Shown in pieces: positions 52,390-56,169 of a DNA stretch of 62,542 bases. Source of the stretch: Armatimonadota bacterium (GTDB lineage: Bacteria > Armatimonadota > UBA5829 > JAUSEB01); contig JAUSGG010000072.1 of NCBI GenBank assembly GCA_030649165.1, forward strand, positions 1-62,542. Reading direction: 5' to 3'. Every line of letters starts with the position of its first letter. The stretch's first letter is position 1. The notes under the pieces are model-generated. The model was not told the origin of the DNA. It did not search any database and saw nothing but the letters and a program-made list of their open reading frames with translations. The position numbers and the translations under genes were made by a program.

Positions 52390-53850
52390 GTGAATACCGC
52401 GGATAACATGACTCCGAAGCAAATCGTCGGAGAGCTGGACAAGTATATCATCGGACAGGACAAGGCAAAACGCGCGGTCGCGATCGCGCTGCGAAACCGA
52501 TACCGCAGAAGGCTCCTTTCAGAGGACCTGAGGGACGAGGTCATCCCGAAGAATATTCTCATGATCGGCCCGACCGGGGTAGGGAAGACCGAGATTGCTC
52601 GCCGGCTTGCCGGCCTGGCCGGGGCGCCGTTCATCAAGATCGAAGCGACTAAGTTTACGGAAGTGGGCTATGTGGGCCGCGACGTCGATTCGATGGTGCG
52701 AGATCTGGTTCAAGTGGCCGTGCGGATGGTTGAATCGGAGAAGATCGAAGACATCCGCCCCAAGGCTTATGACCAGGCTAACGAGCGAATCTTAGACATA
52801 CTTGCGCCGTCGCCAAAACGGCGGCGGGAAGAACGAATGCCTCGTCAGTTGATGGAAGCAATGGAGCAAACGCTCGGTCACCTTTTCCCCGATAAGGAGC
52901 CTGCGCCCGGGCAGGCGGAAGAAGGAGAGGTGGAATCGGAGGATTACGCGAGGACCAGGACCGAGCAGCGCGAGCGGCTTAGAGACCGGCTCAAAGAGCA
53001 GCTTTTGGCCGGGGAACTGGACGACAGGACTGTCGAGATCGAAGTTGAGGACACGAGCAGTCCATTCCTGCAGGTCTTTACGCAGCAAGGGATGGAAGAG
53101 ATGGGGGTAGACATGCCCGGGATACTGGGCAGTATGCTCCCAAGACGTCACAAAAGAAAGCAGGCCACGGTCGCCGAGGCCAGGGAAATACTCACGGATC
53201 AGGCGGCTCGTGAAATGCTGGACCAGGACCAGGTCGTGCGTGAGGCGATCGAGCGGACGGAACAGAGCGGGATCATATTCGTGGACGAGCTGGACAAGAT
53301 CGCGGGCAGGGAACGGGAAGGCGGACCGCAGGTTTCCCGCGAGGGCGTTCAACGGGACATTCTGCCGATCATAGAGGGCTCGACGGTTATAACCAAATAC
53401 GGTCCCGTGAGCACGAATCACATCCTGTTTATCGCGGCCGGGGCTTTTCACGTGAGTAAACCTTCGGACCTTATTCCGGAGCTTCAGGGCCGGCTGCCGA
53501 TACGGGTCGAGCTGGACAGTCTTTCGGAAGGGGATCTTGAGCGGATTCTGACCGAGCCGAAGAACGCACTGGTCAAACAGTACGTCGCGCTCATCGCGGT
53601 GGAGGGAGTCGATCTCGAGTTTTCGGACGACGCCGTCGCGGAGATCGCTCGGATTGCGGCGTTGGTGAACTCGTCGATGGAGAATATCGGCGCGAGGCGG
53701 CTGCACACTATCATGGAGCGGCTGCTGGATGACCTCTCGTTCCAGGCCCCGGATGTAGCCGACAAGAGGATGGTGATCGACGCCGAATACGTTCGGCAGA
53801 AGCTGGAAGATATAGTGAAGGACGAGGACCTGAGCAGGTATATCCTTTAG
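52390..53850 (+). CDS. hslU: HslU ATPase subunit
   Basis: A 486-residue AAA+ unfoldase that feeds HslV. Walker A is GPTGVGKTE (residues 60-68), Walker B is [12 protein letters not shown] near residue 295, and the sensor-2 region is [17 protein letters not shown]. The variable I-domain (about 110-250) is acidic. The C-terminal LSRYIL is the motif that docks into HslV. The start is a GTG with AGGA upstream. It is coupled to hslV. Confidence 0.96.
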
Positions 53851-54616: not shown

Positions 54617-54933
54617 ATGGACTTTCTCGCTGTTTGTGAGCGCTGTATCAAGCGTTTGCAGAAGGCGTGGCCGAACATCGTGCCCGTGCATTTGCCGGTT
54701 CATGCGAGTTGGCTTAATCAGATTGAGATATACTTCTCTGTGTTGTCCAACGGAAAGTCCTCACTCCCAATGACTTTTGCTCGCTAACGATGGTCTCGGG
54801 TCGAATACTCCAATTTCAGGAACGCTACGAACTGATGGCAAAACCATTTGAATGGAAGTTCACCAGGCAAAACCTGGCAGAACTCATGTCAAAGCCGCCG
54901 CCAATGGCCGTGCCATTGGCGCAAGCAGCGTGA
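54617..54933 (+). pseudogene. IS630-family transposase C-terminal relic, frameshifted
   Basis: One frame reads RCIKRLQKAWPNIVPVHLPV, then HASWLNQIEIYFS, the hallmark end of IS630 DDE transposases (the Glu of NQIE is the third acidic residue). After a +1 shift near base 54745 the next frame continues VVQRKVLTPNDF, QFQERYELMAKPFEWKFTRQ and NLAELMSK, also typical. The N-terminal two thirds, start and terminal repeats are missing, so it is dead. No intact copy occurs in the window. Confidence 0.85.
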
Positions 54934-54974: not shown

Positions 54975-55246
54975 TTAGGCTGAAGTTGCATCCCGCCGCA
55001 AAGACGTGGCAAAGGTCCCAGGGAGTAGTGCGCGTGGATTAGCAAACACAGCTACAAGAAGCGGCTCGCTGAGCAATCTTAACTTAGCCCAGCCTGGAAA
55101 ACGGCGTCAAAGCTCACCCAAGGCCGCCGGGAAGCTCTGATTTAGCCCATCGTCGGAACCCCACGAGACCCTGCAGGAACCTAGACGGCGGATTTGGGAG
55201 TGTTAGAGGCCGTTGCGATAGACGGTATACCGGGATCAGCGCTGCC

Positions 55247-55284
55247 ATATGTAGTATGGAATCAGGCTGGACCATACTACATAT
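55247..55284. repeat. Perfect 13-bp inverted repeat
   Basis: ATATGTAGTATGG and CCATACTACATAT around a 12-base loop, about 60 bases upstream of the ncRNA promoter. It is AT-richer than the surroundings and might be an operator or an old element end. Confidence 0.65.
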
Positions 55285-55347
55285 CGTATGCCTGGCTGCT
55301 ATCTGAGGTAGATTTGCTTCTATCGCAACAACCTCGTTACGCCAGCC

Positions 55348-55377
55348 TTGACATGGCACAAACCTACCTGGTAAAAT
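55348..55377 (+). promoter_or_regulatory. Sigma-70 type promoter of a putative ncRNA
   Basis: A perfect TTGACA and TAAAAT with an 18-base spacer. No protein start lies within the next 235 bases. Confidence 0.75.
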
Positions 55378-55384
55378 GCAGTTG

Positions 55385-55598
55385 AAGGAAGCGCGGGGCT
55401 TGTGCTCACGCCTTCCGTGAGCAGAGAAGCAAGTCGATGAAAAGCGCGCACGTGACAGAACACAGCAGCATCGGAGGGACCGCCGCGCGGCGTCTCAGAC
55501 TGGTAGAGGACAGTCTGTGCCATTCCCAACATTTCCAACAGACTGTCGTCGTACGTGTGGTGATCCCGCTCTGACTCTGTGTCGCAGCGGGTTTTTTG
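55385..55598 (+). ncRNA. Putative structured ncRNA or long leader, about 210 nt
   Basis: This stretch lies between a promoter and a terminator and has no gene-like frame. It contains strong local stems: TGCTCACG-CCTTC-CGTGAGCA, the self-complementary CGCCGCGCGGCG, GACAGTCTGT/ACAGACTGTC (10 bp, 19-base loop) and the terminator CCCGCT/AGCGGG with TTTTTT. Size and layout would suit a 6S-like RNA, but I cannot match any known family by eye; tmRNA, RNase P and SRP consensus motifs are absent. The HNH gene starts 17 bases after the U-tract, so a cis-acting leader is the alternative. Confidence 0.55.
55565..55597 (+). terminator. Intrinsic terminator before the HNH gene
   Basis: CCCGCT pairs with AGCGGG across a 15-base loop, followed by TTTTTTGTT. 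Confidence 0.7.
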
Positions 55599-55614
55599 TT
55601 AATGGTGGTAGTCG

Positions 55615-56169
55615 ATGGGTCAAGAGGTGCTTGTATTAAACAGCGATTATGAGCCTCTGAATGTGTGCAACTTGAAGCGGGCAGTGGCTCTAATGTTCCT
55701 GGGAAAGGTGGACGTGCTGCACACGGATACGAAGATCATCCACACCGTATCCGGTTCGTTTGATTCGCCGTCCGTTGTCAGGCTGCGCCGCCACGTTAAG
55801 CGTCCGCTCCCAGAGTTGAGGCTGTCGCGGCGAAGCATATTCGCTCGCGACAGCTACACCTGCCAATACTGCGGCCACGGAGCCAAGGAGCTCACGATCG
55901 ACCACGTTGTCCCCAAACGGTTCGGCGGCGGGACGACGTGGGACAACCTCGTGTGCTGCTGCCGTCGATGCAATACGAAGAAGGGCGATAAGACTGTTCA
56001 GCAGGTAGGGTTTACGCTGAAACGACACCCGAGGCGGCCTAAGTACGTTCCATTCATCAGCCTGACCAAGTACCTCGATGGGACAAGAAACACCGTGTGG
56101 AGAGATTACCTGCCCATTTTCGACGATATGCCTGAGCAACAGCAGGCGATAAACGAAGAGGGAAACTGA
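55615..56169 (+). CDS. HNH endonuclease
   Basis: A 184-residue protein of the widespread stand-alone HNH family. QEVLVLNSDYEPLNVCNLKR opens it; the HNH core has CQYC (Cys83, Cys86), TIDHVVPKRFGG (Asp96, His97), DNLVCCCRRCNTKKG with Asn111 and Cys116/Cys119. HNH enzymes cut DNA using one metal ion; the cellular role of this family is unclear. Transcription must read through, or bypass, the terminator just upstream. Confidence 0.88.
   Translation: MGQEVLVLNSDYEPLNVCNLKRAVALMFLGKVDVLHTDTKIIHTVSGSFDSPSVVRLRRHVKRPLPELRLSRRSIFARDSYTCQYCGHGAKELTIDHVVPKRFGGGTTWDNLVCCCRRCNTKKGDKTVQQVGFTLKRHPRRPKYVPFISLTKYLDGTRNTVWRDYLPIFDDMPEQQQAINEEGN

Follow-up and report, generated by a model that had tools for sequence, protein, structure and literature searches.

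In the E. coli pyrBI operon, UTP is sensed through pausing of the RNA polymerase in a U-rich tract, and the sequence of the leader peptide is not known to matter. The pyrBI terminator lies inside the leader ORF and, as measured in E. coli, ribosomes translating up to a stop codon suppress nearly completely a terminator located a few bp beyond it, with termination falling from ~ 90% to < 10%, an effect which vanishes without translation (PMC4824070). Amino-acid attenuators of the trp/his type and TnaC also have a leader peptide 5' of the regulated gene, with > 20 bp kept between leader ORF and terminator (PMC4824070). Attenuators of antibiotic-response genes in which a uORF senses the ribosome have been described for msrD (PMC10314930), yxjB (PMC6851288) and topAI (PMC12121999) in which a short translated leader ORF reportedly couples the state of the ribosome to downstream expression. 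Finally, the gene of the PLMP and HNH protein IscB is directly preceded by a ~ 200-nt RNA, the HEARO or omega-RNA, whose terminal hairpins are contacted by the PLMP domain (PMC9640706). In the open literature we found nothing on leaders of HNH genes or on RNA motifs of Armatimonadota.

The window, meaning the whole 62,542-nt stretch of Armatimonadota DNA analysed here, contains a leader that recalls several of these systems. From left to right, an IS630-type relic, a ~ 130-bp inverted-repeat element, a promoter, a 45-codon ORF, a terminator, 17 bases and an HNH nuclease gene are found, promoter, ORF, terminator and HNH gene all being on the forward strand. The promoter (TTGACA-18-TAAAAT, 55348-55377) is of the sigma70 type with an extended -10 TG; it shows 11/12 matches, and the scanned 1.2 kb hold no other site of this quality, 0.4 being expected. 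Transcription is expected to start at ~ 55384. The intrinsic terminator (55565-55597) is built from the stem CCCGCT/AGCGGG (55565-55570/55586-55591) with additional inner pairs, and from six T residues at 55592-55597; it was absent from the list of our pattern scanner because its loop exceeds the scanner limit of 8 nt. Both elements had been proposed in an initial annotation made from the sequence alone and both are present as described, including the distance of 17 nt from the end of the T-tract to the HNH ATG (55615). Since these 17 nt, which carry a weak Shine-Dalgarno-like GGTGGT (55604-55609, same bases in locus L010) possibly serving the HNH start, leave no space for a separate promoter, the HNH mRNA should come by readthrough.

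Several neighbouring elements were also observed. The interval 54617-54787 was recognised by eye as a relic of the C-terminus of an IS630-type transposase (PVHASWLNQIEIYFSVL), and 55202-55339 is a MITE-like element with the terminal inverted repeat GAGGCCGTTGCGATAGA and an inner 13-bp palindrome, which ends just 5' of the -35 box and has 3 further genomic copies at 92-98% identity. As for the leader element itself, no extra copies above chance were found elsewhere in the genome. Further upstream, an ASCH-domain protein (PF04266, 53881-54273) directly follows a gene at 52390-53850 which, from its sequence and by eye, we take to be HslU-like.

The initial annotation regarded the interval between promoter and terminator as a gap without protein-like frames. 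Instead, it holds an ORF of 45 codons with an ATG start (55437-55574) whose TGA stop (55572-55574) is inside the terminator hairpin, and which is conserved at the protein level. This constraint was assessed on predicted ORF starts by column-shuffle tests, whose signal was confined to the ORF frame among the three. The z value is 4.1 for the window plus L010, 6.6 (0/500) for the group of the window's order and 4.4 (0/500) for the Fimbriimonadales, where changes at codon positions 1, 2 and 3 number 20, 22 and 46; smaller groups give z 0.4-2.4, the two weakest being pairs with almost no changes, and no sign of coding was obtained for group G11 (L075, L077, L082) in the tested frame. Relatives retain the peptide core ARRLRLVEDSLCHSQHFQ (residues 17-34, codons at 55485-55538; RRL[RK]LVEDSLCHSQHFQ) with codons that differ by synonymous changes, and in the window's order it reads A-R/H-x-L-R/K-[LMIV]-[LV]-E-D-[GS]-x-C, while the ORF past the core lacks conservation and shifts frame in Fimbriimonadales. 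Judged from these substitution patterns, the leader ORF appears to be translated. No family for the peptide was found in Pfam or NCBIfam, and a profile of the order's peptide gave ten matches < 1e-16 in 291 genomes, all directly 5' of an HNH gene. Within the order (n = 19 genomes, some of them incomplete) the peptide is present in 10 of the 12 genomes with the HNH gene and in none of the 7 without it.

The same interval had been read as an independent structured transcript, which would make it a stand-alone ncRNA, 6S-like or other, unrelated to the HNH gene. Indeed, promoter and terminator bound a transcript of ~ 210 nt, but the coding signal and the strict HNH linkage contradict this reading, to which we give practically no chance of being correct. 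Furthermore, folding of the whole element (MFE -99.7 kcal/mol, z -1.83) is only mildly stronger than chance, 10 of 200 shuffles folding equally well. The perfect 10-bp stem singled out in the initial annotation is indeed present (55509-55547, arms 55509-55518 and 55538-55547); it lies inside the ORF, is not conserved in the closest relative, has no support from covariation, and was rejected as a conserved RNA feature. Consensus folding of the leaders from the window's order predicts no stem besides the terminator, and a search of Rfam gave no match in the window at the gathering score and none relevant at E <= 5. Among 20 relatives, neither HEARO nor another relevant Rfam family was found, the only matches being tRNAs in two of them. 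The terminator stem itself covaries in the window's order, with 15 double-side changes versus 5.4 after shuffling (0/500) and paired cells at 95% versus 35-50% when slid. Of the conservation expected for the stems only that of the terminator was recovered, and neither 6S RNA nor a riboswitch, with a conserved and covarying scaffold or aptamer, was identified. The suggestion that the element could be a riboswitch-like leader controlling the nuclease stands in its outline, given a conserved terminator directly 5' of the HNH gene with no space for a promoter; nothing points to a riboswitch, and the sensing element is likely to be the translated short ORF rather than a conserved RNA fold.

We then compared the sequences that precede HNH at 101 distinct loci, 93 from Armatimonadota and 8 from Chloroflexota, the latter being the sole outgroup; these loci are related and their counts do not represent independent events. 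A hairpin-plus-T terminator is located shortly 5' of the HNH gene in 86 of the 93 Armatimonadota loci and, under one fixed criterion, in 84/93 HNH starts versus 28/300 other ORF starts on the same contigs. Promoters matching at 10/12 positions or better occur in 75 of the 93 loci, compared to 12 of 465 shuffled regions. Both elements are found in the proper order in 71/93 Armatimonadota loci and in 0/8 of the Chloroflexota loci, which have neither promoter nor terminator. The arrangement conserved across Armatimonadota is thus a sigma70 promoter, a short ORF which fills the leader in most loci, an intrinsic terminator and the HNH gene.

The peptides differ between classes while this layout is kept. 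Chthonomonas-like genomes encode ...MLPDSFSHLHYLHH and similar sequences, which by eye only seem related to the core of the window's order. The Fimbriimonadales peptide is different (...RWSTGSWFGTRGRYR), this core being part of a near-leaderless ORF in L084-L100, and L026 and L031 have another leader ORF (MSDDD...), which crosses the terminator before ending in an ATGA that overlaps the HNH start. In some Chthonomonas-like and related loci (L048, L051, L061, L069, L073, L087) His-rich tails such as HLHHLHH are observed just 5' of the terminator, and a metal- or His-linked signal is possible.

The position of the stop codon was examined by taking blindly, in each locus, the longest of the ORFs lying between the promoter and the HNH gene. 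The stop is located <= 12 nt from the first stem base of the terminator in 32 of 59 loci versus 8 of 71 ordinary genes with terminators on the same contigs; in the leader loci it mostly overlaps the first stem bases, whereas ordinary genes mostly display gaps > 16 nt. In Fimbriimonadales and in one further genus the ORF crosses the terminator and mostly stops at the start codon of the HNH gene; in Fimbriimonadales it does so in three different frames and ends at a TGA overlapping the HNH start in 12/16 genomes.

Given this geometry, and the repression of stop-proximal terminators by the ribosome in E. coli, the leader is probably a ribosome-dependent, pyrBI-like transcription attenuator of the HNH gene. 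The basis for this reading is the conserved arrangement, the coding ORF, the stop at the terminator, the covariation of the terminator and the lack of space for another promoter, from which we infer termination, readthrough and occlusion by the ribosome at the window leader. RNA polymerase would start at ~ 55384 and transcribe the short ORF (55437-55574), and a ribosome following closely to the last codons or the stop would mask bases 55565-55570, which form the 5' arm of the terminator; with the arm covered the hairpin could not form, and transcription would continue into the HNH gene. Without translation of the leader, or with a ribosome that lags, has stalled further 5' or has departed, the terminator would fold and only the ~ 210-nt RNA would be made. 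The HNH gene would hence be on when the leader is translated and off when it is untranslated or the ribosome lags. The conserved core, which ends 11 residues before the stop and would consequently occupy the exit tunnel of a ribosome positioned on the terminator, may tune the dwell time of the ribosome there. In Armatimonadota, transcription of the nuclease gene thus most likely depends on whether the peptide is translated.

As in pyrBI and the stop-proximal tR2 constructs (PMC4824070), a short leader ORF of ~ 45 codons here reaches or crosses the terminator just before the structural gene, and the proposal shares with pyrBI a translating ribosome that can block the hairpin directly with no antiterminator. 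The window leader differs from pyrBI by its conserved core, the absence of an evident U tract and a nuclease as target. Compared to the trp/his and TnaC terminators, the stop here is at or in the stem. The proposed coupling resembles that of msrD, yxjB and topAI, although peptide, gene and phylum are different. Several observations count against an attenuator. Direct occlusion alone leaves the conservation of the peptide sequence unexplained; the peptides differ between classes, and one set (L075, L077, L082) gave no coding signal. In addition, the Shine-Dalgarno sequence of the window ORF is weak, and in 27 of the 59 loci the ORF called blindly ends elsewhere than at the stem.

The conserved core also raises the question of whether the ribosome responds to a specific cue. 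A nascent-peptide or codon sensor, TnaC- or trp-like, would turn the HNH gene on when a metabolite, an antibiotic or a shortage of an amino acid makes the ribosome arrest where the ORF ends. Such a sensor is a special case of the attenuator reading, so that the likelihoods of the two overlap, and we consider it possible while rather doubtful. It would fit a core placed at tunnel distance from the terminator and the His-rich tails of the Chthonomonas-like loci. Furthermore, in Fimbriimonadales (L084-L100) the segment CAGGCTCC is flanked by two Trp codons and complementary to GGAGCCTG, the 5' arm of the terminator, an arrangement which recalls the trp layout and could possibly form a trp-like switch. 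However, no residue or codon is common to all clades and no known arrest motif was recognised. A general search for antiterminators gave none (mean z -0.16 over 86 loci), the complementary segment being confined to Fimbriimonadales, and the lack of a common antiterminator leaves a trp-type switch of the classical form unsupported. No run of codons for one amino acid is common to the leaders, and the target is a nuclease and not, as in trp/his-type systems, a biosynthetic gene.

Alternatively, the short ORF could be a gene for a small protein, e.g. a partner or inhibitor of the nuclease, with its own terminator, the HNH gene being expressed by unregulated partial readthrough. The conserved core and the strict linkage with the HNH gene, which would also fit a functional pair, agree with such a gene, but the stop sits on the terminator stem unlike those of ordinary genes, the sequence varies after the core, with a shifted frame in Fimbriimonadales, the peptides are unrelated between classes despite the constant layout, and the ORF was never found without the HNH gene. 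For these reasons we find a small-protein gene unlikely, and favour the ribosome-dependent attenuator.

The gene placed under this putative control (55615-56169, forward strand) encodes a 184-aa protein with an HNH_5 domain and no RuvC. It is a single copy in most genomes, and the protein is 85% identical in the nearest relative found, isolate E14_maxbin.151. With an N-terminal profile, its N-terminus matches that of IscB at 17.3 bits versus 6.6 for the best of 1000 shuffles, while a single-sequence comparison with the IscB profile aligned only the HNH part. In the AlphaFold model (pLDDT 83), residues 2-66 superpose on IscB residues 1-52 with an rmsd of 1.4-1.8 Å and a moderate Z of 6.1-7.5, five IscB entries being matched by fold (9k2z, 9k30, 7utn, 8ctl and 7xht). 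According to profile and model, the protein has the PLMP and HNH domains of IscB without RuvC. Such a layout was reportedly named IshB by Altae-Tran et al. in 2021. The window protein shares with IshB its size of ~ 180 aa and its IscB-like PLMP and HNH domains, a likeness of layout, and differs in being encoded by a single-copy chromosomal gene with a candidate attenuator leader. IshB is also mentioned in PMC12477157.

Since the protein carries both IscB domains, and a ~ 200-nt RNA lies directly 5' of its gene as HEARO RNA does for IscB, the leader could be thought to encode a guide-like omega-RNA, the more so given the hairpin contacts of the IscB PLMP domain. Against this, HEARO is absent from the Rfam results reported above, the terminator is the only conserved structure where a scaffold would be expected, the RNA is under coding constraint and closed by a terminator that separates it from the HNH ORF, and the Chloroflexota homologs have no such leader; a guide function is therefore highly improbable. 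A related idea, likewise very improbable, is that the PLMP-HNH protein may bind the terminator hairpin of its own leader and so autoregulate its transcription, as the IscB PLMP domain holds omega-RNA hairpins. If true, an autoregulatory leader RNA of this kind would offer a model for the first acquisition of an upstream guide RNA by the IscB/Cas9 lineage.

Under the attenuator reading, a whole phylum probably keeps a translated attenuator before a functionally uncharacterised IscB-like PLMP-HNH nuclease. Its stop-on-terminator geometry, in dozens of genomes, would parallel in nature a design represented so far chiefly by pyrBI and synthetic constructs, and with its conserved core the leader may include a nascent-peptide sensor of an undescribed kind. 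If this is true, the nuclease would be under translation-linked control, which would offer a clue to the timing of its production and hence to its purpose.
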